Below are positions 34 to 54,408 of a DNA stretch of 64,000 nt, piece after piece (positions within the stretch are counted from its first letter, which is position 1; the number at the start of each line of letters is the position of its first letter). The notes under the pieces are model-generated. The model saw nothing but the letters and a program-made list of their open reading frames with translations. It did no database searches and was not told the origin of the DNA. Source of the stretch: Ghiorsea bivora (GTDB taxonomy: Bacteria > Pseudomonadota > Zetaproteobacteria > Mariprofundales > Mariprofundaceae); the NCBI RefSeq assembly GCF_000744415.1, contig NZ_JQLW01000010.1:1-64000 (forward strand), written 5' to 3'. A program made the position numbers and the translations under genes.

Positions 34-1095
34 TCACGCAGCATTGAGACAAGGCTCATTTTTTGCGCAAATTTCATTTTCAGGGTTAAGCCAAACGTGG
101 TTTAACCTACCCCAGTTTCTTGTGTTTCCTGACCAGCGTTTGGGCTGCTGTTTTTTTGCCATTTCATAGACCTTTTTTCGATGGTTAAGAATGCTTTCAT
201 CCTCACCACTATGCCGCTGCACAGGTGTTACAAACTTTAACGAACTATGCCTATGCTCAGTGTTGTACCACGTCACAAAAGTATGTATCCACGCTCTAGC
301 TTTTGCCAATGATTCAAAGGGTTGAGATGGGTAAGCTGGTGTATATTTCAGCGTCCTGAATAGAGATTCAGAATATGGGTTATCATCGCTGACTGATGGG
401 CGACTAAACGATGGTACAACACCCAAGCGTTGTAAGGTTGCCAACATGGTCGCACCTTTCATTGGTGAGCCGTTATCTGAGTGTAAAACAAGCTCTTTTT
501 CCACAGTGTTTTCAGTCAAACATGCCTTTTGAATCAATGCTGATGCGTGAGCGGCAGTTTCAGATTCATGCACTTCCCAACCTACAATTTTGCGGCTAAA
601 AATATCCATGGCCAAGTACAAACGGTAAAACTTACCCTTGATGCTGGCAGCCAAATAAGTGATGTCCCAACTCCATACTTGATTGGCTGCTGTAGCCTTA
701 AAAGCTTTAGGTTTTATAACCTTGCGAGGTGCCGCAGCTTTGCCTCGCCGATGCAGTTGCTTTGCTTCACGTAAAATACGATAAAAGCTTGATTCTGAAG
801 CAATATACCGCCCTTCATCTGCGAGCATAGGTACAATTTGTGAAGGTGGTAATGAGCGGTATGGTTCACTGTTACAGATGGTAAGCACTTGTTTTCTTTC
901 CTCTAAACTCAATTTATTGCTAGGTACACGCACAACCTGCGAGCGCTTATCTTCAAGCCCTCCAACCTTTTTCCAGCGCAAATATGTATGCGTAGAAATG
1001 CCCAGAATATGACAAGATTTATGCATACGCGCCCCTGCACTTATAGCTTCATGAAGTAGTGTGACAGCCACCTGACGTTCATCCTTGGCAATCAT
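34..1095 (-). CDS. IS3-family transposase OrfB (DDE integrase core)
   Basis: This 353-residue catalytic subunit joins the IS ends to target DNA. An N-terminal helical, HTH-like region is followed by an rve-type integrase core from about residue 130. The catalytic triad is visible as D144 (WSWDITYL), D207 (LHSDNGS) and E243 (YSESLF), with the DD(35)E spacing of IS3 elements. The ATG overlaps the OrfA stop as ATGA, so OrfB may be made by translational coupling or by a -1 frameshift to an OrfAB fusion. I see no obvious A6 slippery run at the junction. The frame is intact and the triad complete, so the element may still be active. Confidence 0.93.
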   Translation of the reverse strand: MIAKDERQVAVTLLHEAISAGARMHKSCHILGISTHTYLRWKKVGGLEDKRSQVVRVPSNKLSLEERKQVLTICNSEPYRSLPPSQIVPMLADEGRYIASESSFYRILREAKQLHRRGKAAAPRKVIKPKAFKATAANQVWSWDITYLAASIKGKFYRLYLAMDIFSRKIVGWEVHESETAAHASALIQKACLTENTVEKELVLHSDNGSPMKGATMLATLQRLGVVPSFSRPSVSDDNPYSESLFRTLKYTPAYPSQPFESLAKARAWIHTFVTWYNTEHRHSSLKFVTPVQRHSGEDESILNHRKKVYEMAKKQQPKRWSGNTRNWGRLNHVWLNPENEICAKNEPCLNAA

Positions 1096-1565
1096 TCTGC
1101 CTCGGGATCCCCCCAGATGGCATTGGCTTTTTTTGACAGTATCAACAGCGCAGCTGCCTCTGCCAAAGCCTTATCTTTGCGCTCAATATCACGCCGCAAA
1201 CGCGCCAACTCCTTACTTGCTTGGGTCGCGGTTTTCTTGGCTGCTATATCAAGTTCACCTTGCTCACGATTACCACGAATCGCTGCCTGCTTCCAAGCCT
1301 CAATATCCTCAACATAAATACCCTTCTTGCGGCAGTATTCGCCAAGCTCAACCGCACTGAATGCGGCTGTTTCAATCAAAGCATTAAACTTATCCTCACT
1401 GCGCCACTTCGTGGCACTAGAACGAGCACCACCAGCTTGTTTCCATCTATAAAGCGTGCTTCTAGCTATGCCCGTTTCTTTCGCCAAAGTTTCAACAGAA
1501 ACAGCAGGCGAAGACAGCATCTTTTCAACCAACTTATCTTTTAATTCTTCTGAATATCGCGTCAT
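1092..1565 (-). CDS. IS3-family transposase OrfA (helix-turn-helix)
   Basis: This 157-residue OrfA recognises the IS ends. The first 45 residues form a helix-turn-helix (ETLAKETGIARSTLYRWKQ). The last 50 residues are a charged coiled coil (ARLRRDIERKDKALAEAAAL) that typically mediates multimerisation in this family. It is longer than the usual OrfA of about 100 residues, with extra sequence in the middle. It ends in a TGA that overlaps the ATG of OrfB. The ATG at 1565 follows AGGAGATAGTGA, a good ribosome-binding site. Confidence 0.9.
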   Translation of the reverse strand: MTRYSEELKDKLVEKMLSSPAVSVETLAKETGIARSTLYRWKQAGGARSSATKWRSEDKFNALIETAAFSAVELGEYCRKKGIYVEDIEAWKQAAIRGNREQGELDIAAKKTATQASKELARLRRDIERKDKALAEAAALLILSKKANAIWGDPEAE

Positions 1566-41680: not shown

Positions 41681-42571
41681 ATGTCATTTTTTAGTCGTCT
41701 TAGCAAAGGGTTGAGCAAAACCCGTGAAAGTATTGGTGGTTTATTCCCCAGTGAAACCAAAGAAAAAATAAGTGATAGCCAATGGCAAGACATTGAAGAT
41801 GCCTTAATTATGGCAGATTGTGGCGCACAATTAGCCATGGACTTGGTTAGAAAAGCAAAGAAATCAAAGCAACCCATGCAAACCTTAAAAGACAATATGC
41901 AAGCCACCTTGGTGACAGGCAGTGAAATCAAAGAAGCAAAACCTTTTGTGCTTTTGGTTGCAGGCGTGAATGGCACGGGCAAAACCACCACGATTGGTAA
42001 ACTTGCCAATATGTATGCCGACCAAGGTAAAAAAGTATTGATTGGCGCAGCAGACACCTTTCGTGCTGCAGCCGTTGAACAATTAGCTGTATGGGTGGAA
42101 CGCGCTGGCGCAGATATTGTTAAACAAGCAGAAGGTGCGGATCCTGCATCGGTTGCTTTTGATACTATCTCACGTGGCATAGCCAAAAATTATGATGTGA
42201 TTATTATTGATACTGCAGGTCGTGTACAAACCGATACCAGCCTGATGAATGAGTTGGCCAAAGTATACCGCGTGATTGGCAAAGCCCTAGATGGTGCACC
42301 GCATGAAGTTTGGCATGTGGTTGATGGTGGTACAGGGCAAAATGCAATTGTACAGGTCGAAAAATTCCGTGAAATCATTCATACCACAGGTTTGATTGTG
42401 ACCAAGCTTGATGGCACTGGCAAAGGTGGTGTGGTATTGCAACTATGTGATAAGTTTAAGTTACCCGTGCGTTATATTGGGGTGGGTGAAAGTTTGGAAG
42501 ACTTGATGCCTTTTCATGCAGGAGCATATATCGATAGTTTACTGCCTGAAACAACACAAACCTCAACATAA
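41681..42571 (+). CDS. ftsY: Signal recognition particle receptor FtsY
   Basis: The 296-residue GTPase docks SRP-ribosome complexes at the membrane. The NG domain has the P-loop GVNGTGKTTTIGKLA, DTFRAAAVEQL, DTAGR and TKLDGTGKGG. The acidic A domain of E. coli FtsY is absent, as in many bacteria; the N-terminus is a short amphipathic helix (MSFFSRLSKGLSKTRES). I use the ATG at 41681 behind GAGGGTG; the frame is open to 41630. Its 3' end overlaps that of cheR by 9 bp, convergently. Confidence 0.95.
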   Translation: MSFFSRLSKGLSKTRESIGGLFPSETKEKISDSQWQDIEDALIMADCGAQLAMDLVRKAKKSKQPMQTLKDNMQATLVTGSEIKEAKPFVLLVAGVNGTGKTTTIGKLANMYADQGKKVLIGAADTFRAAAVEQLAVWVERAGADIVKQAEGADPASVAFDTISRGIAKNYDVIIIDTAGRVQTDTSLMNELAKVYRVIGKALDGAPHEVWHVVDGGTGQNAIVQVEKFREIIHTTGLIVTKLDGTGKGGVVLQLCDKFKLPVRYIGVGESLEDLMPFHAGAYIDSLLPETTQTST

Positions 42572-43387
42572 ACGCCAAATTCTTTGCCGTTGAACATCAA
42601 CCCGTTGCCACTTGGATATATTTCCTTCAGGTAAGTCTGCGGCACCTGTAATGAGGTAACCACCTTTACGCATCGTTCTGGCTATGCGGTCAATCACGCG
42701 TTTGCGCTCTTCAATACTAAAATAAATCAACACATTACGCAAAAACACAACATCAAATAAACCAAACCGGTGCATTTGTGTCACCAGTGTATCTAACACC
42801 AAATTTCCCTCATAAAAGCTTGCCATTGCTCTTAAATCATCATTCACCACCCACGATGGCCCCATTGGACGAAAAAATTTATTTAACCTTGGCATGGAAA
42901 CACCACGCTTTACTTCAATATCTGAATAAGTCCCTTGCTTGGCAAACGCAACCGATTCCGCAGATAAATCTGTGCCTACAATTTGTACACGCTGCCTAGC
43001 ATTGGGCATAACCTCGCAGGCTGTCATAGCAATAGAATATGCCTCCTGACCTCTGGATGCAGCAGCTGACCATATATTTATAGGTGAACTCATACCTTTA
43101 CCTTGGTTTATTTCAGGAAAAATATGTTCTTGTAATGCAACAAAAGGGTAACCATCCCGAAAAAACAATGTTTCATTGGTAGTCATCAAATCAATCGCTT
43201 CAGCAGCAAGTGCCGAGTTTTCTTGCTGCTTTATCTTAAGAATAAGTGCATTCAAATCATCTGCGTTATATTTTGTCAAAATCGGCTGAAGTCTTGATTT
43301 GACCAAATATGCTTTTTCCTTGGTAATTACGATACCACTTTTCCTTTCTAGAAACTCTCTAAACCATGTAAATTTATGCTCTTTCAC
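42563..43387 (-). CDS. cheR: Chemotaxis protein methyltransferase CheR
   Basis: The 274-residue enzyme transfers methyl groups from SAM to glutamates of chemoreceptors. An N-terminal helical CheR_N region is followed by the Rossmann domain, with NIWSAAASRGQEAYSIAM, VGTDLS and VFLRNVLIYFS. The start is GTG at 43387 behind GGAGC. It is last in the seven-gene chemotaxis operon and, with CheB, provides adaptation. Its 3' end overlaps ftsY. Confidence 0.93.
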   Translation of the reverse strand: MKEHKFTWFREFLERKSGIVITKEKAYLVKSRLQPILTKYNADDLNALILKIKQQENSALAAEAIDLMTTNETLFFRDGYPFVALQEHIFPEINQGKGMSSPINIWSAAASRGQEAYSIAMTACEVMPNARQRVQIVGTDLSAESVAFAKQGTYSDIEVKRGVSMPRLNKFFRPMGPSWVVNDDLRAMASFYEGNLVLDTLVTQMHRFGLFDVVFLRNVLIYFSIEERKRVIDRIARTMRKGGYLITGAADLPEGNISKWQRVDVQRQRIWRLC

Positions 43388-43413: not shown

Positions 43414-44487
43414 TTAGGCCACATGCCTGAGCATAGCTTTAGCTATATCAGCTAAAGGTAAGACTTCATTAGCAGCACCATTGCGAAAGGTTTCACCTGC
43501 CATACCCCACACCACACTGCTTTCCTCATTTTGGACAAGCACATGATTTCCTTGTTCTGACAGTAACTTGGCGCCTTTAGCACCATCGTTACCCATGCCC
43601 GTCAAAACCACAGCCAAGGTTTTTACTGCTGGCGATAACGCAACCAAAGATTCGTAAGTTACATCTACCGACGGAATGGCATGGTTTACCCGTACCCCCG
43701 CCTCTAACTGTGCAACCAAAGCTGAACCACGTTGCATAATTTTCATATGCACATCACCTGGTGCCATATATACATGCCCAGCTTGAAGCACCTCACCTTG
43801 CCCTGCCACACGACAAACCAGCGGACTGCTTTGATTCAAACGTGTCGCAAGTGATGTAATAAATGCTTTGGGCATATGCTGAGTTACCACAACCGGCACT
43901 GAAAAATTTTCAGGAAGCTGACTTAACACCTCTTGCAAAGCAGCAGGTCCTCCTGTGCTTGAACCAATGGCAACCACATCTGCCTTAAATACACCACGCG
44001 TTACCTTATGACTTGTTTTTAAAGGAGAGGCGGCTGCGTTTACTGCTGTTGGAGTAACTTTTACAGGCACATGCACACGTTTAAATACCGATTTTAAGCT
44101 TCGCGCTTGCTGAATTTCAGGTAACAATTTATCTTGCAAGTAAGTTTTTTTATCGACAACATTGGTATCAGGTTTAAGAATAAAATCAAATGCACCCAAC
44201 TCCATAGCTTTTAAGGTTTTCTCTGCATCTGTTTCCGTGCTACAAGCCACAACAATCACTTTAATATGTGGGTACTTTTCTCGCATTTGATACAAAATTT
44301 CTATGCCGTCCATATCTGGCATCTTCATGCTTAAGGTAATTAAATCTGGTTGCAAGTGCGCAATCATATCCAATGCTTTTTTTCCATTATTGGCAACACC
44401 AATAATTTCCGTATCGGGTAAGTCGGATAAACATGTGCGTAATAACAAACGAAATGGAGCGGAACTATCAACTATAAGGATTTTCAT
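43414..44487 (-). CDS. cheB: Chemotaxis response regulator methylesterase CheB
   Basis: The 357-residue protein has an N-terminal receiver (MKILIVDSSAPFRLLLRTCL; phospho-acceptor region DLITLSMKMPDMDG, where the usual aspartate appears as a serine-methionine variant, see findings). The C-terminal esterase has serine in AIGSSTGGPAAL, histidine in VVTQHMPKAF and aspartate in GMGNDGAKG. I use the ATG at 44487, giving MKILIVDS; the frame stays open into cheW. It removes methyl groups from receptors and balances CheR. Confidence 0.9.
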   Translation of the reverse strand: MKILIVDSSAPFRLLLRTCLSDLPDTEIIGVANNGKKALDMIAHLQPDLITLSMKMPDMDGIEILYQMREKYPHIKVIVVACSTETDAEKTLKAMELGAFDFILKPDTNVVDKKTYLQDKLLPEIQQARSLKSVFKRVHVPVKVTPTAVNAAASPLKTSHKVTRGVFKADVVAIGSSTGGPAALQEVLSQLPENFSVPVVVTQHMPKAFITSLATRLNQSSPLVCRVAGQGEVLQAGHVYMAPGDVHMKIMQRGSALVAQLEAGVRVNHAIPSVDVTYESLVALSPAVKTLAVVLTGMGNDGAKGAKLLSEQGNHVLVQNEESSVVWGMAGETFRNGAANEVLPLADIAKAMLRHVA

Positions 44488-44494
44488 ATGCTGT

Positions 44495-45019
44495 CTAATG
44501 CATAGTGATTTCTTTGGTATTGGGTGCCGATGCATTGGGAATGGTCAATGCAACAAATCTATCCACATTCACCAGTAACAACACTCTATCCTCTTGTTTT
44601 AACACCCCATCACTCACTTGCCGCCACACTTCGTTTAAAGAACTCGGTGTTGCCTCAAACAAATCTTCATCCAACACAATCACTTCGCCAACATCATCCA
44701 CAATCAGACCAAAGTCTTCACCACTCATGGTTTCAATAATAACCACGTGAAAAGGCTCATCTTCTCCTCTATCTGGCTCACCAATCACACGGCGCACTTC
44801 AAGCTCTGTAATCACCCTTCCCCGCAAGTTAATCAAACCCGCGACTGCATAGGGTGCCATAGGCATAGTGGTTCGCTTTTGTTGTTTTACCACCTCCCGC
44901 ACCTGTTGTACGCGAAAACCAATCCATTGATCAGCGATGCGACACGTCAAAAGCTCAACAGGTTTATTGTCTTTCATCACCGTGACGGATGACGTTTCAT
45001 GAACCAATACATTTGACAT
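44495..45019 (-). CDS. cheW: Chemotaxis coupling protein CheW
   Basis: The 174-residue SH3-like adaptor links receptors to CheA. Family segments include CRIADQWIGFRVQQVREVV, GLINLRGRVITELEVRR and DFGLIVDDVGEVIVLDED. The tail is slightly longer than usual. It starts 10 bp after the cheA stop and its stop is 7 bp before the cheB start. Confidence 0.92.
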   Translation of the reverse strand: MSNVLVHETSSVTVMKDNKPVELLTCRIADQWIGFRVQQVREVVKQQKRTTMPMAPYAVAGLINLRGRVITELEVRRVIGEPDRGEDEPFHVVIIETMSGEDFGLIVDDVGEVIVLDEDLFEATPSSLNEVWRQVSDGVLKQEDRVLLLVNVDRFVALTIPNASAPNTKEITMH

Positions 45020-45028
45020 ATTTACCCC

Positions 45029-47632
45029 TTAACTCACAGTGATAGCTGGCTGTACATCTTTCGTTTGTGCTTCAAGCACATCGTATACCGACAAAGCCTG
45101 CTTTAATTCTTTAGCCAATTGCGTGCTATCTTTTTTCGAAAGCACTTGGTCAAACAACGTTTTGGCTTGTTGCTCATCAATACTTTGCTGTGCTGTTAAC
45201 GCAACCACTGGCACATCAGACAAGTGCGCTTGCATTTTTACCCATTTACCCAACTCATATCCATTCATAATCGGCATTTCAATATCGGTTAAAATAAAGT
45301 CTGGTGTGTAATCTTCCAAGAGTTTACAAGCTTGGGTACCATCCGCTGCCGTACGCACCACAAAACCCAAGGATTCAATAATAGGTGTAACCATTTGCCG
45401 GAAGAACTGTGAATCCTCAACAAACAATACCGACTTCTTGGCTTGGTCATGCGTGGGAACAAACCAGTTTGGATCTGCTCTTTGCACCACTTCAAAAACA
45501 TCAACCACTTCGGTTGCAATGCCTTCAATCACAGTTGTACCTAATAAAAGCGGTGTATCTGAAATTTGCTTAATTTCAAAACTTACTTCTAAAATATCCA
45601 CCACTTGATCAACCTGCAAACACATACGTTTTCCATTGTCAGCTAAGATAAGGCAATACTCATCTTCACCCGTAGATACGGCAGGTTTTTTCCCTAACAT
45701 TTCACCCCAACGCAGCACTCGAACCACATCACCACGGTATTGTAAGACCTCACCCGAAGCCGTTTTTTCAATGCGTGATGCTTCAAAATACTCCAAACGC
45801 TCAATTAAAGTCATTGGAATCACAAAACGCTGCTCACCTTGGGTAAATACCAATGCATGTTGCCGTTCTTCTGCCAGCCCATCATCATGCTCACCCATAT
45901 AATCAATCGCTTCGGCAGGCGCGCTTTCAAGTTGAATCATGGATGCCAAACCATTGCAATCAAAAATTGGAATCACCGTACCGTCACCCAAAATACTACA
46001 GCCACCATAAAAATTCAGATGTTGAAAATGAATACCCAACGGTTTGACCACAATTTCTTCGGCACCAAGAATTTCATCCACCAAAATCCCATACGTTCTA
46101 TCACCAATATCAGCCACGACGATAGAGCCTGATAAAGTTGTATCACTGGCATCAGATAAACCCAAAGCTTCATTTAAACGTAACACGGGTAAAAGTTTCC
46201 CACGTAAACGATAAAAAACTTGCCCTGCAATCACCCGCCAATCATCTGAATCTTTGGGTGCGCTTAATAACTCTTGCACACTCATCTGAGGAATTGCAAA
46301 CCGTTTATCTTCACAAACCACAATCATGGCTGAAATAATTGCCAAGGTAAGCGGAATACGAATCCGAAGTGTAGTGCCTTTACCAAGCTCACTATCAATA
46401 TCTACGCTTCCACCAACGCGCTCAATTTCAGTGCGTACCACATCCATACCCACGCCTCGCCCTGAAAAATTAGTCACCTTCTCTGCGGTGGAAAGACCTG
46501 CATTAAAAATAAGCTGTAAAGCAGCTTTGTCAGTCATATTGGCTGCTTGCTCTGCATTGATCACACCCATATGCATCGCTTTGTCCTTGATGCGTTGTGC
46601 ATCAATGCCACCGCCATCATCATGAATCGTAATCACAATAAACCCTGATTCTTGTACCGCTGAAAGCTTAAGTATACCCGTTGCTTGTTTTTCAGCCGCT
46701 AACCTAACCTTGGGCGATTCAATACCATGGTCACAGCTATTACGGATAATATGAGTGAGTGGGTCTTTAAGCGCATTTAATATGGTTCTATCCAGCTCGG
46801 TATCTTCACCTTCCATCACCACTTTAATTTTTTTATCTAACTGCTTACCAATATCACGAACAATACGTGGCACACTGCTCCAAATAGTTTGAATGGGCTG
46901 CATCCGTGTACGCAATAACTGCTCTTGTAACTGCTCAGTAATTTGATCCACATCACGACCAATACGCACAAATTCCATAGAGCCAGAGGCTTGAATCATC
47001 TGCACCAGACTATTCCGAGTTAACACCAGCTCACCAACTTGGTTCATCAACTCGTCTAGCAATTCAATATCCACACGAATACTTTCATGGCTTACAGGTC
47101 GTTTTTGTTTGGTTTTACTCACACCTTTTTCTTGCGATGTCGTTTGCACGGCTTTGCTTTCTAGTGTTTTGTTTTGTACTGCGGGAGGCGTTGCCACAGT
47201 TTCCGTAGACTCTTGCGTACTGCTTTGCACCGTTTCATTACTTTTTTTGGTTTCCAATTTTGGCGCTTTCGTTGGCTTTTCTTTGCTTCCACTTTCAGTG
47301 TGTACGGACACACTTACTTCTACATCCTCACCCGATTCCACACGCGCCCTAGCCATACCCAAGATTTTCAAGGCATCCGCAGGCGTCAAAGGCTCAAGGT
47401 TACGTAAAGTTGCAAAACCAGCCTCAATCAAACTCGAAGCCGTCGTCAGGTTGTTGGCAATCATGGCTGCAATCACCGCATCTTCAAAACCTTGCAACCA
47501 TGTCAAAGGCTCAGCTTTATTGTCTTGTTCTTGCGCAACCTGAACATTTTCAGCTTCCATTGGTGCTTGCCCATGATCATCGCCTCCCTGTTGACCTTCC
47601 CCCCGCTGACCTCCCCCCCTCTTGACCTTCAT
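45029..47632 (-). CDS. cheA: Hybrid CheA histidine kinase, main part (P3-P5, second CheW-like domain, receiver), separated from its P1 by a frameshift
   Basis: The 867-codon frame begins inside the G-rich linker and has no credible start. In order it has a helical hairpin domain (about 42-100), P3 dimerisation helices (about 185-240, LLDELMNQVGELVLTRN), the ATPase (HIIRNSCDHGIES, GRGVGMDVV), a CheW-like P5 (435-570), a second CheW-like domain (590-730), and a receiver (745-860, VLFVEDSQFFR, phospho-acceptor ILTDIEMPIMNG). The kinase needs the P1 histidine encoded by the upstream frame. The two frames overlap by 56 bp and would be one 1,000-residue protein if a single G were removed from the run of seven at 47613-47619. 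Confidence 0.85.
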   Translation of the reverse strand: MKVKRGGGQRGEGQQGGDDHGQAPMEAENVQVAQEQDNKAEPLTWLQGFEDAVIAAMIANNLTTASSLIEAGFATLRNLEPLTPADALKILGMARARVESGEDVEVSVSVHTESGSKEKPTKAPKLETKKSNETVQSSTQESTETVATPPAVQNKTLESKAVQTTSQEKGVSKTKQKRPVSHESIRVDIELLDELMNQVGELVLTRNSLVQMIQASGSMEFVRIGRDVDQITEQLQEQLLRTRMQPIQTIWSSVPRIVRDIGKQLDKKIKVVMEGEDTELDRTILNALKDPLTHIIRNSCDHGIESPKVRLAAEKQATGILKLSAVQESGFIVITIHDDGGGIDAQRIKDKAMHMGVINAEQAANMTDKAALQLIFNAGLSTAEKVTNFSGRGVGMDVVRTEIERVGGSVDIDSELGKGTTLRIRIPLTLAIISAMIVVCEDKRFAIPQMSVQELLSAPKDSDDWRVIAGQVFYRLRGKLLPVLRLNEALGLSDASDTTLSGSIVVADIGDRTYGILVDEILGAEEIVVKPLGIHFQHLNFYGGCSILGDGTVIPIFDCNGLASMIQLESAPAEAIDYMGEHDDGLAEERQHALVFTQGEQRFVIPMTLIERLEYFEASRIEKTASGEVLQYRGDVVRVLRWGEMLGKKPAVSTGEDEYCLILADNGKRMCLQVDQVVDILEVSFEIKQISDTPLLLGTTVIEGIATEVVDVFEVVQRADPNWFVPTHDQAKKSVLFVEDSQFFRQMVTPIIESLGFVVRTAADGTQACKLLEDYTPDFILTDIEMPIMNGYELGKWVKMQAHLSDVPVVALTAQQSIDEQQAKTLFDQVLSKKDSTQLAKELKQALSVYDVLEAQTKDVQPAITVS

Positions 47633-48029
47633 CCAAACCCATCACCTTTTTCTCACATGCTTGTAAACGCTCAATCAAGTCATCATGATCTAAAACGGGT
47701 TCTTGCCCTGTTTCTTCTAAACCTGTGAGCACATCCTTAATTGCATCTGCGCACTCCAAAAGTAAGGATACAATATCTTCATCCACATGATACTTAAGCT
47801 CTCGAATACGGCTTAATAGATTCTCACCTGCATGGGCTACTTTTTCCAACCTGCTTAAGTTGAGAAAACCACAGCTACCTTTCACCGTATGAATGGCACG
47901 AAAGATAGAGTCCAAAAGCTCTGAATCATCAGGGGAAGCTTCCAAATCCATGAGCTGCTGCTCAATGGATTCTAGGCTTTCATTGCTTTCTGTTAAAAAT
48001 TCACCTAAGAGTTCTTCATCCATGTCCAT
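47577..48029 (-). CDS. cheA: CheA P1 (Hpt) domain, 5' part of the split cheA
   Basis: The 150-residue frame holds the CheA histidine phosphotransfer domain with the phospho-acceptor H47 in IFRAIHTVKGSCGFL. Residues 1-130 are the helical bundle. The last 20 (EGGRSAGGRSTGRR) come from reading the wrong frame after the G7 run. In the alternative frame the same DNA reads GGGQRGEGQQGGDDHGQ and joins the rest of CheA. As read, it makes an isolated Hpt protein that could be phosphorylated in trans by the separate kinase part. Confidence 0.8.
   Translation of the reverse strand: MDMDEELLGEFLTESNESLESIEQQLMDLEASPDDSELLDSIFRAIHTVKGSCGFLNLSRLEKVAHAGENLLSRIRELKYHVDEDIVSLLLECADAIKDVLTGLEETGQEPVLDHDDLIERLQACEKKVMGLDEGQEGGRSAGGRSTGRR
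47613..47619 (-). repeat. Run of seven G (minus strand) at the cheA frame break
   Basis: The minus strand reads CAAGAGGGGGGGAGGTCA. A second, six-base run lies at 47599-47604. Six instead of seven G would fuse the two cheA frames without any stop. Runs of this kind mutate by slippage and are a usual basis of phase variation, and also a frequent place for sequencing errors. Confidence 0.75.
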
Positions 48030-48065: not shown

Positions 48066-48440
48066 TTAAAAAAGCATGCCACCGACTGTTTCAATTAAAG
48101 CTTCAGGCTGAAAAGGTTTAACCAACCATGCTGAAATACCTGAGTTGTGCCCAATAGCTTTTTTATCTTCGCCAGATTCCGTCGTTAACATCACGATTGG
48201 TGTGTGTGCATAAGCCTCTGTTTCTCTCAACTTTTGAATCATGGTTAACCCATCCATATTGGGCATGTTTAAATCGGTTAGAATCAAATCAAAAGGTGTT
48301 TCAGCTTGTATTGCTTTATCCAAACCTTCTTGTCCATCTTTGGCTTCTTCCACACCAAAATCAACAGACATCAGTGTTCGTTTCACTGTAATTCTTACCA
48401 TTGCCGAGTCTTCAACAATTAAAATCCGTGGACCACTCAT
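48066..48440 (-). CDS. cheY: Chemotaxis response regulator CheY
   Basis: The 124-residue single receiver domain has the acidic pair in ILIVEDSAMVR, phospho-acceptor D in LILTDLNMPNMDG, the threonine in IVMLTTESGE and lysine in WLVKPFQPE. When phosphorylated it would bind the flagellar switch or, in this operon, another output. Its ATG overlaps the stop of the channel gene upstream (ATGA), so the two proteins are made in coupled fashion. Confidence 0.93.
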   Translation of the reverse strand: MSGPRILIVEDSAMVRITVKRTLMSVDFGVEEAKDGQEGLDKAIQAETPFDLILTDLNMPNMDGLTMIQKLRETEAYAHTPIVMLTTESGEDKKAIGHNSGISAWLVKPFQPEALIETVGGMLF

Positions 48441-51400
48441 AACTCACCTCTCAATACAATTCGCTCTTCTTCCATCACATAACGTTTGGCAACTTCTTCT
48501 TCCCAAGCTGCTTTTTCTGTAGCTTCAGGCTGTGCATCTGCCCATTCACTCAAACATGATTTCACATTGTTCAGACGTTGGTTTACCCGATCGATATTTT
48601 GTAAATCGGTCAGTGCTTCCATCAGCTTGGCTTCCACTTCAGGAGCTACACCCATTTCCAAAATATCCATGAGTTTTACCAAACCCTCTTCACTGCTTGT
48701 TGCCAATAGCTCCACTGAGCCTTGCACTTGTTTTTCCAATACCCGCAACAAACGTTTATCTACCTGCTTAGGCCAAATTGATTCACGCATCACTTCTCCT
48801 TCAACAGCCATATCAACCACTGCAACGGATTGTATGTCTTGGTTTTCTTCTTTAATCACTTCATCACTTGGAGCCGCTTCACACGTTTCTTCTTCTCTTA
48901 CTACTTCCTCTTGGGCTTCAACTGGTGTGTTGGTAGCAACAACCGTTTCTTCTGTGTTGAGCGTTAATGTTTGCTCAGCTTCGTTTTCGTCATTATTCAA
49001 CACACCACGACGACAAAATAAAAATGAAGCCGTTTGATAGGGCGCATCCATTTCCATCACAGGTGAGCCCGCCAACAACTGCATATTACCCACATGCCCT
49101 GAATGCAAAGGAAACACATGATCCAAAGCATGAAACAAACTTTTTGCATCTGTATCCTTATCATGTTTCAAATATGCCATCAGCATCCAACCACGGCGCA
49201 GTGCTTCCCGATAAACCGACTCCCAACTGGGTTGTTTCCCACCCTCAAGCAAGTGTATCGCTTCTACATCTTCCACCAACACAGCATCACCAAGCATATT
49301 GTCCATAAAGTCATAAGCATACTTATCTTCAACAGCTTCCTCAGGGTATTGCATCTTTCTTGCTTGTGTAAGCAATTGCCTTGCCATAAACACATCATGG
49401 AACGCATCAGGCGAGCCAACCCGCACATCCAAAAGTGGGTAGCGCTGACCAGCATTAACCAAACTTTCAATATTTTCTGCCATACGCGGCAAGACCATCA
49501 GTTTGGGTGGTGTCCACCATTTCACTTGTTCTTTGCGTGCAGAGAGCATGGATGCCACTTCATGCAACCAAAGCTCCAACATCGAATCCTCATTACCCTC
49601 TTCCCCACTTTCAGGGTAAAACATGATAACTTTACAACCGCGAAGTTGTTTGCTTAATACTTCGGTATCCAAACCATCCCATGCATGAACCGACACATTT
49701 AAGGTGCATGATATGTTTTCTTTCACATGTTCTTCAACACTTCGCAAAGCACGCATTTGTGCTGTTAACAATGTTTCATCATGGGTACTAAAAACATGGC
49801 ATGTTAGCTTATGATGTCGCTCTGCCATCTCTTCAATCATGGCTGGCAAACCAGGGTGCCAACCCAAAAACATCATGGATAAATCCCAAGTTTCTGGCCA
49901 AGTAAAGGTTTGCAATTGATTTTCATGAGGCATAAGCCCTAAATCAAAGCTTTGCTCTAAAATACCCGACCATAAAATTCTATCTCTGCCCAAAGCAATG
50001 ATGCCTTCAAAAGCTTCATCTTTTTTGTGTTTGACCAAATCACTGAACAAAATAAATATTCCATCATGTCGCCGTGCTGCCAACACATTCAGCCCCAAAC
50101 CAAAACAATTGGTTAACCAAGGTTCGAGCAACAGTTGTTCATTTTCAAATTTAATTGCAGCACCCGCACTGCTGGTTACAATCTCAAACTGCCACGACAT
50201 GCTGTATAAACCTGTTTCCCCCGACACCACATCAAACATATGAATACCCAACTCTGGCATATGGCTGCAATGATGCATTTGATACAACATACGGGCGCGA
50301 ATCGAAGATGAGTCCACCACATGCATTGCCAATGAATGTTCATAAACTTGGGATAAACTTAAGGGTAACCGACTGTCTGTAACCACCAACCCATCGGTAT
50401 CCAACTCACGTGCCAAATGGTGAATATCCGCAACCTTGGCTGTATCTGGCTCATGCTGTTTCTGCATGAATACAATAAATTGAGTAATACCTGTAAGTTT
50501 AAAATGTTCAATCAAAGCGCGACTTCCCGTTTGCACCTCGCGCACACTTAACCAACTACCCACTTGTGCCGCACCATCCACCACTTTATCATGAAAAATC
50601 CACACTGAAGGAAAAGAATAACGCAACCTTGCCGCCAGTTGTCCAAGCTTGTGTAAAATGGGCATAGCCTGTTCATTGTATCCCATAAACAATAAGTGTT
50701 CACGCGCTGAAAGTGGGCTATTGGCAAGCTCGTCTAACATATATTTCATCACATTCGAGCCAAGGCTGACCACCAAAGCAAAGAAAAACACACCTGAAAG
50801 CACCAAAACAACTGTCAAACCCGTTAACCAAGGTGTAAATGCCACCGTGGGTGCAGCGCCAGGGTCTATCATCAAACGAAAGACAAATAACAACACCTGA
50901 AACGGCGCATAATCCCCAGCATTCACATCACCATCGTCATTAATATCAATATGCGGATAAAAATACCAAATGGCAATAAAACCTATAATCATGAATGCCA
51001 TAAACATGGCTGCCAACATGCTGCCTTCACGGCGAATTTCAGGTCTAGCCACTACTTTTTTCACGGCAAGCCAAATATTACCCAAGGGATTGAGCATAAT
51101 AAGGAAACGAACGAGGCGTAACAAAACCCAAGTGCTACTTAATTCAGGTACAATACCCATCAAAGCAATAGCAGCAAACATATCAGGGGCGATAAAAAAG
51201 ACTTCCCACCGTCTGCGTTTTCCAGCGGATAAAACGCGGTATAAAGAATACCAGCGATAACTGGTTTCAATCAACAAAATCATGCCAATATACAAACCAA
51301 TACTAGACACCGCCCAAGCAAGAGCTGCAAGCCCCACCATCACCAAAGAAAATGGCAATGAAAACACCAAAGTATCAAAGGTTAAAAAGCGGAAAATACG

Positions 51401-52036
51401 CAACATCCGTAACATATACATGCCACGGAATAGCCTTGCGATACGCAAATAAATGCCCTGCTCCAACAAACCTGCTGGCATCAACAACGAGGCATACATA
51501 CTGATAGTCGCTAAGCCATCAAAAAAGAGAAAAAACAGCTCCATTTTGTTGCGATAGCCACTTTCCTTTTGCAGCCAAAAGCGAAGCACCCACTCCACTG
51601 TAAAAAAGATCGCCAGCGGTGCCATAACAAACCAATAGCGCTCAAACACGCATAAACCCAAAGCAATCATGACAATAACAGCATAACGGGGATGCGAAAA
51701 GACACGTTCGCCCAATAATAACCATTCACGTTTGGAATGAGGACCCGATAAACGCGCCATCCACTCTGATGACCACGATGAACTGCGATGGTTTAAGTTG
51801 GAACTTTCAACATCATTTTTTGTAACAGACGATGTTTCAACACTAACTTGATTTCGTGAACCTTCATTCACTACTGCATTCACATCAGCTATAACCTGCT
51901 CAGCTTTGGCTTGTTGAACATCTTCAGCTTCAAATTTTATTGTTTTCTCAGCCACCTGAATACTCTTACAACTTGCCATCGATAACGTAGGTTTCACCAC
52001 TGTATTTAACAGTGCCGTAACTGGTGGTGTTGTCAA
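48437..52036 (-). CDS. CASTOR/POLLUX-like voltage-sensor channel with RCK-like part and CheZ-like C-terminal tail
   Basis: The 1199-residue protein has a polar N-terminus (1-100) and membrane helices from about 113. An S4-like helix has arginine at every third position (R198, R201, R204, R210, R213, R216). A second set of helices precedes the pore. An EF-hand loop (D364-D375) precedes the pore helix (FRLMIDPGAAP). The final membrane helix leads into an RCK-like part (LLFMGYNEQAMPILHKLG) of about 550 residues. A disordered acidic linker and a helical tail (about 1081-1199) follow. The tail has LQNIDRVNQRL, in which D1149 and Q1153 match the D-x-x-x-Q of CheZ. It lies between the MCP gene and cheY. 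Channel similarity is to plant CASTOR/POLLUX-type proteins. Confidence 0.65.
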   Translation of the reverse strand: MTTPPVTALLNTVVKPTLSMASCKSIQVAEKTIKFEAEDVQQAKAEQVIADVNAVVNEGSRNQVSVETSSVTKNDVESSNLNHRSSSWSSEWMARLSGPHSKREWLLLGERVFSHPRYAVIVMIALGLCVFERYWFVMAPLAIFFTVEWVLRFWLQKESGYRNKMELFFLFFDGLATISMYASLLMPAGLLEQGIYLRIARLFRGMYMLRMLRIFRFLTFDTLVFSLPFSLVMVGLAALAWAVSSIGLYIGMILLIETSYRWYSLYRVLSAGKRRRWEVFFIAPDMFAAIALMGIVPELSSTWVLLRLVRFLIMLNPLGNIWLAVKKVVARPEIRREGSMLAAMFMAFMIIGFIAIWYFYPHIDINDDGDVNAGDYAPFQVLLFVFRLMIDPGAAPTVAFTPWLTGLTVVLVLSGVFFFALVVSLGSNVMKYMLDELANSPLSAREHLLFMGYNEQAMPILHKLGQLAARLRYSFPSVWIFHDKVVDGAAQVGSWLSVREVQTGSRALIEHFKLTGITQFIVFMQKQHEPDTAKVADIHHLARELDTDGLVVTDSRLPLSLSQVYEHSLAMHVVDSSSIRARMLYQMHHCSHMPELGIHMFDVVSGETGLYSMSWQFEIVTSSAGAAIKFENEQLLLEPWLTNCFGLGLNVLAARRHDGIFILFSDLVKHKKDEAFEGIIALGRDRILWSGILEQSFDLGLMPHENQLQTFTWPETWDLSMMFLGWHPGLPAMIEEMAERHHKLTCHVFSTHDETLLTAQMRALRSVEEHVKENISCTLNVSVHAWDGLDTEVLSKQLRGCKVIMFYPESGEEGNEDSMLELWLHEVASMLSARKEQVKWWTPPKLMVLPRMAENIESLVNAGQRYPLLDVRVGSPDAFHDVFMARQLLTQARKMQYPEEAVEDKYAYDFMDNMLGDAVLVEDVEAIHLLEGGKQPSWESVYREALRRGWMLMAYLKHDKDTDAKSLFHALDHVFPLHSGHVGNMQLLAGSPVMEMDAPYQTASFLFCRRGVLNNDENEAEQTLTLNTEETVVATNTPVEAQEEVVREEETCEAAPSDEVIKEENQDIQSVAVVDMAVEGEVMRESIWPKQVDKRLLRVLEKQVQGSVELLATSSEEGLVKLMDILEMGVAPEVEAKLMEALTDLQNIDRVNQRLNNVKSCLSEWADAQPEATEKAAWEEEVAKRYVMEEERIVLRGEL
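50912..50947 (-). other. EF-hand-like calcium-binding loop in the channel protein
   Basis: These 36 bases encode DINDDGDVNAGD (residues 364-375). Positions 1, 3, 5, 7, 9 and 12 are D, N, D, D, N and D with glycine at position 6, a canonical EF-hand/dockerin loop. It lies between the helix SMLAAMFMAFMIIGFIAIW and the pore helix, so it should face the periplasm. Confidence 0.7.
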
Positions 52037-52083: not shown

Positions 52084-54333
52084 CTAACGGTTGCGCAAGC
52101 TGGCTAAAAAATCAGTCACACGAGCCGATAAAGACTCTCCTTTTTGTCGAATTAATGACGATACACTTTTTACTTCACTGGCTGATCTACCCGTATCTTC
52201 AGCTGCTTGTCGCACATCCGAAATGGCAGTCGTCACCCGCACTGTTGCATCGGATGCATGGTGAACACTCTGTGCAATATCTTGTGTTGCTCTGCTCTGC
52301 TCACTGGCTGCCATAGCGATAGCTTCATTGATAGTATTCATTTTTTGAATGGTTTGACCAATCTTTTCAATTGCCGTTGCCGCCCCTTGGCTTTCCTGTT
52401 GAATCGCTGTTATTTGCAAGGAAATCTGTTCAGTTGCTTTGGCAGTTTGATTTGCAAGTTCTTTCACTTCTCCTGCCACTACAGCAAAACCACGCCCTGC
52501 ATCACCTGCTCTAGCAGCTTCAATGCTTGCATTAAGTGCAAGTAAATTGGTTTGTTCTGCAATATCTGTAATTACACCCACAACTTCACCAATTTCTTGC
52601 GATGCTACAGATAGTTTAGCGACGGTTTTATTGGTCGTTTCTGCTTCAGACACAGCTTGTGACGACATATCCACAGCACCTTGTACCTGCTGTGTGATTT
52701 CAGAAATCGAAGAGGAAAGCTCCTCTGTTGCTGATGCCACATTGGCAACATTATGATTCGCCTCTTCAGCACCAGCAGACACACTGGTTGCTTGCCCTAA
52801 AGATTGCTCAGCCATCGCTGAAAGCGTTTCGGATGATGATTGCATTTGTGTTGCTGCAGCGATTAATTCATCCACTGTTGCCCCAATATTAGTCTCAAAA
52901 TCTTTGGCCAGTTGCACAGCATGGGTTACATCATTCCAAGATACCAAAATAGATACCCAGTCACCATCAATATTCTTAATCGTATGTGCACTAAATTCAA
53001 TGGTTCGATCAGCAATTTCAAACGATGCAGACATCGGAAATGACTGTTCATTTTTGAGAACTTGACGCTGATGTGATGGTTTTTCATGAAAGATATCGAT
53101 GTTTTTACCTACCAATTCTGAAGCAGCACATGGCAATGCACCTTCAATACCCTGAAACAATGCAAGCGCCGCTGGGTTCATATAACTAATCACCAATGAA
53201 TCCTTATCCGCAAGCATCATGGCTTGTGGTGAAGACTCCACAACTTGCTTTAACATATTGCTTTCCACAGATTGTTTTTGGAACTTTCTCAGTGAATCTA
53301 ACAGCTCACTTATTGCTCCCTTCATTGGATATGATACCTCGCGAATTTCTCCCCGCTCCAATACATCCATAGCTTCTGCAACCTTATTTAACGGTGTTGT
53401 AATGGTTTTACCAATCCTAACAATTAAAAGAGTAATCAATACAATAGCAATGGTTAAGATTCCCCAAAACTGATACTTTTGAGATGTTTGTCGAGCAGCC
53501 TGCTCTTCATATAATTTATCAAGATAAGATTGGAACCCTTGGTCTAATAACTTTATTTCCGCACTAAGCTCAGTTTGGTAAATTTTCTCCAGTTCTGTTT
53601 CAACTTGAATCAAACTTAAAAGTTTTTCAGCATAACTTTCAAATGACTTTTCGTATTCCCCCATATCTCTTTCTATATTATGTTTCACTTGCATGCTTAA
53701 GTTTGATTGTCGTAGCAGGGTCTTAAATCTTTGTACTTCTTTGTGAAACTTGTCCACATATTTGGGTTGCTGGCGCAGCATAAAGTCTTTTTCATGCCGT
53801 CTTAACATGAGCATAGAAACCATAAGATTATTTTTGTTGTATTTTTTCAGGTTTGCCTCAACATTATGTACAGCTTTCCGCAACTGACCGGTAAGCCCAT
53901 CATTTTTATTCAAACCTAATTTTTCACGCTCAACCGCAGCTTGCTCAAAAATACTATCAAACTTCTGCATAGCTTGCTGTAAATTGACCGTCTCTTGATT
54001 TAACGCAGTGGTCGGAAGACCATGAACCAATGTTTGAATATCCTTATCATTATCTGCTGAATACGCTAGCCATGCTTCTTTCCCTTGTTTATCTTTATAT
54101 TTTAAATACCGAGCAGCTGATTCAAATTCAACAAAAACATTTCCCAACAACCTACCTAGTACACCTTGTAGATGCATGGCATCGGTTACTCTAACCGTGA
54201 CCTCACGCACTTGATTACTTGAACTATTGTGAACTGCACCCGCCACCAACATACCAATAACAGCAACTGTACCAATCAAACGTAAACGTCCGACAATTGT
54301 AAGTTCTGCAAACCATGTTTTGATATTAACCAT
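52084..54333 (-). CDS. Methyl-accepting chemotaxis protein with PAS domain
   Basis: I start at the ATG 54333, eight bases after GGAG; the frame is open to 54348 at a GTG. The 749-residue receptor has a membrane helix ([15 protein letters not shown]), a helical periplasmic domain of about 270 residues, and a second helix ([17 protein letters not shown]). A HAMP-like region ([17 protein letters not shown]) and a PAS domain (about 380-490, [14 protein letters not shown]) follow. The signalling hairpin tip has [20 protein letters not shown]. It is first in the chemotaxis operon and presumably its dedicated receptor. The gene to its left starts 48 bp away. Confidence 0.92.
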
Positions 54334-54408
54334 TCTCAACTCCAACACTGAGCTTATTTTTCTAAAAGTTTTACAATTTAAAGCAAAAGCAATGCCATTT
54401 CTTTTGCT

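Follow-up and report, generated by a model that had tools for sequence, protein, structure and literature searches.

The flagellar-type cheA gene of the sequenced Ghiorsea bivora stock is broken into two overlapping reading frames at a run of seven G, and the explanation that we favor on balance is a recent, revertible single-base slippage frameshift (G6 to G7) in this TAG-1 stock. We infer that the sequenced strain is TAG-1, a cultured isolate described with 2.16 Mb, 42.68% GC and 13 contigs (PMC8250860); the genome analyzed here has 2,154,483 bp in 13 contigs and is rated 100% complete, and the 64,000-nucleotide stretch under study (the window, 42.7% GC) lies on a 208-kb contig.

The divided cheA gene and its repeat linker

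The 5' frame of cheA is an Hpt ORF at 48029-47577 on the minus strand (150 aa), and the 3' frame is a kinase ORF at 47632-45029 on the same strand (867 aa, ATG at 47632). They share 56 bp (47577-47632), and the exact G7 stands inside this overlap at 47619-47613. These coordinates bear out the sequence-only reading, which had described the 56-bp overlap of an Hpt and a kinase frame with a G7 at 47613-47619, as well as its claim that dropping one G restores a single frame of about 1,000 residues: without that base, 48029-45029 is one frame of 999 codons and a stop, and its junction peptide would be GGGQRGEGQQGG.

The first ORF matches PF01627 (Hpt) in Pfam with an E-value of 8.6e-17 and carries, as the P1 domain, the phosphorylatable-His motif HTVKGS; its frame (47577..48029) continues into GRSAGGRSTGRR and ends at the stop at 47577. 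Pfam matches of the second ORF are H-kinase_dim, HATPase_c, CheW and Response_reg, and together with the motifs they assign to 45029..47632 a linker domain, the P3 dimerization and P4 ATPase domains, CheW-like domains and a C-terminal receiver. Direct reading of the sequence finds the kinase motifs NALKDPLTHIIRNSCDHG, DDGGG and GRGVGMDVV, and all kinase motifs are intact. The domain order of a CheA protein (P1, P3, P4, P5) is thus present and divided between two frames. Codon-usage scoring shows the best coding frame switching across the G7, and therefore the frame break is a real coding signal. After the linker, kinase-frame residues of about 42-105 (47509-47318) form a conserved small domain, WLxGFEDAVI...LTTASSLIEAGFATLRNLEPLTPADALKILGMAR, which is common to Mariprofundales CheA proteins and has no Pfam match.

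Around the tract, positions 47582..47627 of the minus strand form a tandem repeat, rich in G, whose unit is about 15 nt long (5 codons, GQxGG-like; TRF period 15, 2.6-2.8 copies). The GGTCA unit starts at 47627, 47611 and 47596, that is, with a spacing of 16 nt and then of 15 nt, and the unit out of register is unit 1, which holds the G7 (47613..47619); for this reason the extra base is most likely one G of the G7, with an ancestral G6 that would be in frame on both sides. The register agrees with the earlier proposal that one extra G in this run constitutes the lesion, and it rules out a lesion in the neighboring G6 run of repeat unit 2 (47599..47604, minus strand).

The genes of the surrounding cluster listed here lie on the minus strand; outside cheA the operon is intact, as the sequence-only reading had stated. 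By Pfam the cluster includes a methyl-accepting chemotaxis protein (MCP) with a PAS domain (52084..54348) and a CheY-like receiver (48066..48440) upstream of the broken gene, together with cheW (44495..45019), cheB (43414..44535) and cheR (42563..43387). Between the MCP and cheY genes, a protein of 1,199 aa (48437-52036, minus strand) gave no Pfam or NCBIfam match; its N-terminal part has a membrane or ion-channel-like look.

FliM, FlgH and FlgI are all encoded in the genome, and for this reason the cell probably builds flagella. H-kinase_dim was matched by the window cheA only in the whole genome. A second CheA, on contig C7, adjoins a PilB-like ATPase with receiver, CheW and an MCP and probably serves type IV pili. 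A redundant CheA taking over was rejected on these two observations. By gene content, then, the lesion strikes the one canonical CheA that this flagellated genome has, and since the only other CheA-like kinase is found with pilus-type genes, loss of the window CheA should impair flagellar chemotaxis. In the accessible literature, neither motility nor chemotaxis of TAG-1 was found described.

Relatives, age of the break and fidelity of the record

The cheA genes of relatives outside the species G. bivora were searched in 61 genomes. Thirteen congeners, and no fewer than ten relatives beyond them, have a cheA that runs through the P1-core junction as a single open frame; its length is about 850-1,050 codons, in some cases cut short by a contig end. 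No relative found (the same 13 congeners and at least ten others) has a G run at the corresponding place of the P1-core linker. At this place TAG-1 has GLDEGQE-(G tract)-GQRGEGQQGGDDHGQAPMEAENVQVAQEQDNKAEPL and the nearest congener (L009, 89% identity) has GLNEDEQGEVSSATESIQPEQEQGDKVEPL; the 15-nt G-rich repeat linker is absent from L009-L011. By this comparison, the tract is private to TAG-1 and sits within an inserted, fast-evolving linker, and its position goes beyond chance in that it breaks a gene that is one open frame at the junction in every relative found. A cheA frameshift of an unrelated kind was observed in another congener (L048/L022, MAG TAG_MAG_00014), where it affects the C-terminal receiver domain only and leaves the kinase part intact.

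When TAG-1 is compared with the nearest congener, the Hpt part has a dN/dS of 0.025 and the kinase part one of 0.069, and neither value exceeds those between intact congeners. Strong purifying selection is thus evident in both halves, so that the lesion is young: the break is young relative to the species split, or not fixed. An ancient pseudogene is ruled out by the same values, which also uphold the earlier view that the loss is not of long standing.

Intact relatives, a full operon and purifying selection are all compatible with a gene that was never broken; the chromosome would then carry G6 and the G7 would be a sequencing or assembly error. The neighboring G7 and G6 runs inside a repeat would make a difficult spot on any platform. 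This explanation was already raised by the sequence-only reading as an alternative, and we regard it as unlikely, although the strongest of the rival explanations. A pattern search located the tracts of the genome, and sampled stretches served to read them: the genome holds 27 separate G/C runs with a length of at least 7, and at 14 G7/G8 tracts besides that of cheA, among them the G8 of flgH, the ORF is intact and its frame preserved, which makes a general homopolymer error of this assembly unlikely. In the window and some 150 kb of sampled contigs, a scan for frame breaks recovered normal operon overlaps, an IS3-like element and the cheA break; no second G run was found to interrupt the frame of a gene that is sound in other respects. 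Genome-wide homopolymer errors were accordingly discarded, none being seen among the coding tracts and sampled stretches, while an error confined to the cheA site keeps the standing given above. Another G7, at C8:187006, is found in a gene fragment that also bears an in-frame stop. At C5, a gap of 10 N within a tandem repeat suggests a scaffolded short-read assembly; these Ns may also be masking.

Homopolymeric tracts and the possibility of switching

True phase variation would imply frequent flips between G6 (on) and G7 (off), with chemotactic and non-chemotactic cells coexisting. A pure G7 exactly at the frame break of the flagellar CheA fits such a system, as a one-unit change of the homopolymer toggles the cheA frame, and there are precedents for short tracts. 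Meningococcal siaD (Neisseria meningitidis), as cited in PMC5953494, switches on and off by one base at a tract of the same G7 length, but siaD is a capsule gene and its tract is part of a known phase-variable locus. Helicobacter pylori fliP (Josenhans et al. 2000, cited in PMC12838425) likewise combines a short homopolymer, a motility-system gene and a one-base frame break that is reversible in principle; there, however, switching was demonstrated experimentally, whereas the TAG-1 cheA is known from a single genome state and the tract lies in a kinase linker. Within the genus, a private pure G8 in TAG-1 flgH and a G10 at a frame break in congener G014 can also be counted in favor of switching.

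On the other hand, the tract occurs in no relative found, and among the congeners no orthologue keeps it in on and off lengths. At G7 it is shorter than the G>=9 cut-off of the phasome survey (PMC5953494) for a hypermutable length. Nor is it longer than chance would give, as the window has 3 G/C runs of at least 7, vs 2.64 in dinucleotide shuffles. MutS and MutL are both encoded in the genome, and of the 30 tracts in the genus that reach a length of 9, 26 lie outside genes, a distribution that also led us to reject a genus-wide phase-variation system. Literature searches yielded no case of a phase-variable cheA. The reversible G6/G7 chemotaxis switch that had been proposed from the sequence was therefore left without support, and phase variation is in our estimate a doubtful explanation. 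Slightly more doubtful still is its fuller form, in which G6/G7 slippage in the CheA linker, perhaps joined by the private flgH G8, would let a free-living deep-sea iron and hydrogen oxidizer toggle all of its flagellar chemotaxis.

Other tracts deserve mention in their own right. The flgH G8 (G000:C8:56361-56368; L090 2962-2969) reads GGG GGG GGC GGT, four glycines in frame, at a site where four congeners with readable codons show mixed GGT/GGC, and the flgH product matches FlgH models through to its C-terminus. The G10 of congener G014 (L128, near 1502) coincides with a frame break of a large protein rich in repeats and is a better phase-variation candidate than cheA. A pure G17/C17 run of a length far above chance (G000:C9:200681-200697; L093 4682-4698) is flanked by the short inverted repeats CCTGTCAATTT and AATTGGCAGG and precedes a B12-binding/radical-SAM-like gene, and a G14 run (G000:C6:194877-194890; L086 4878-4891), possibly a length-variable promoter or leader, separates lpxK-like and sodium/solute symporter-like genes.

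Expression of the two halves and significance

The two frames might also yield a functional kinase without any change in the DNA. In one such scheme, P1 and the core would be made as two proteins, the latter by reinitiation at the ATG at 47632 or 47560, and would act in trans. Start codons are present in the kinase frame at both positions, all kinase motifs are intact, and in Rhodobacter sphaeroides the CheA3/CheA4 pair is a known working arrangement with P1 on one polypeptide and the P3-P4 core on another (PMC3591291). That system differs, however, in being stable and evolved, with localization domains on both parts, CheA3 retaining P5 for docking, whereas the P1 fragment of TAG-1 has no other domain and the two halves overlap out of frame. 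Additionally, the ribosome-binding sites judged by eye are poor and have long spacing, and the split is seen in no relative, all those found having a single ORF across the P1-core junction. A working split kinase, conceivable at a low level from these internal starts, is quite improbable. In a second scheme, some full-length CheA would arise at the G run through transcriptional slippage or a +1 shift of the ribosome; a Gly-tRNA could re-pair from GGG to GGG within the run, and in an IS3-like element elsewhere in the window the two ORFs meet at an A7, as in known programmed slippage. A +1 slippage on a G run is not known as an efficient signal, and the site is conserved in no orthologue among the relatives, which makes programmed slippage unlikely; we give recoding, which includes the ribosomal slippage offered earlier as an alternative, hardly any credence. 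The IS3-like element itself occurs in two copies (window 135-1550, minus strand, and G000:C2:~400-1500), and its OrfA/OrfB junction, an A7 run plus G6, fits known programmed frameshifting.

The favored explanation, a recent slippage frameshift, can be put as a sequence of events. The segment that links P1 (Hpt) to the kinase core would have expanded in the TAG-1 lineage as G-rich 15-nt in-frame repeats, creating runs of G6, one of which then gained a G to become the G7. Translation from the cheA start would stop just past P1, and the kinase core would be lost or poorly made from internal starts, so that the sequenced stock may represent a chemotaxis-kinase-off or impaired genotype whose DNA state is in principle revertible. 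The frame break, its site, its restriction to this lineage and its young age are shown by the comparison of sequences. Three further points are our inference: a true presence of the G7 in the DNA, a lowering of chemotaxis by it, and its origin as a chance mutation, tolerated or favored in culture, rather than as an evolved switch. A parallel is known in Campylobacter jejuni, where homopolymer slippage in broth culture in the laboratory led to the loss of motility functions through flgR, flgS, flhA and flhB (PMC7677240); those genes are regulators and export genes of a contingency-locus-rich genome, unlike the cheA of TAG-1 in a genome with MutS and MutL.

If the G7 is an error, one base in the record needs correction. 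If it is real, the published gene counts of the Ghiorsea bivora type strain conceal a disabled chemotaxis kinase, and behavior tests on the TAG-1 stock, such as those of gradient positioning by iron oxidizers, would mislead. Were switching to prove true, it would be an unusual instance of phase-variable chemotaxis in a free-living chemolithotroph, outside the host-associated bacteria.
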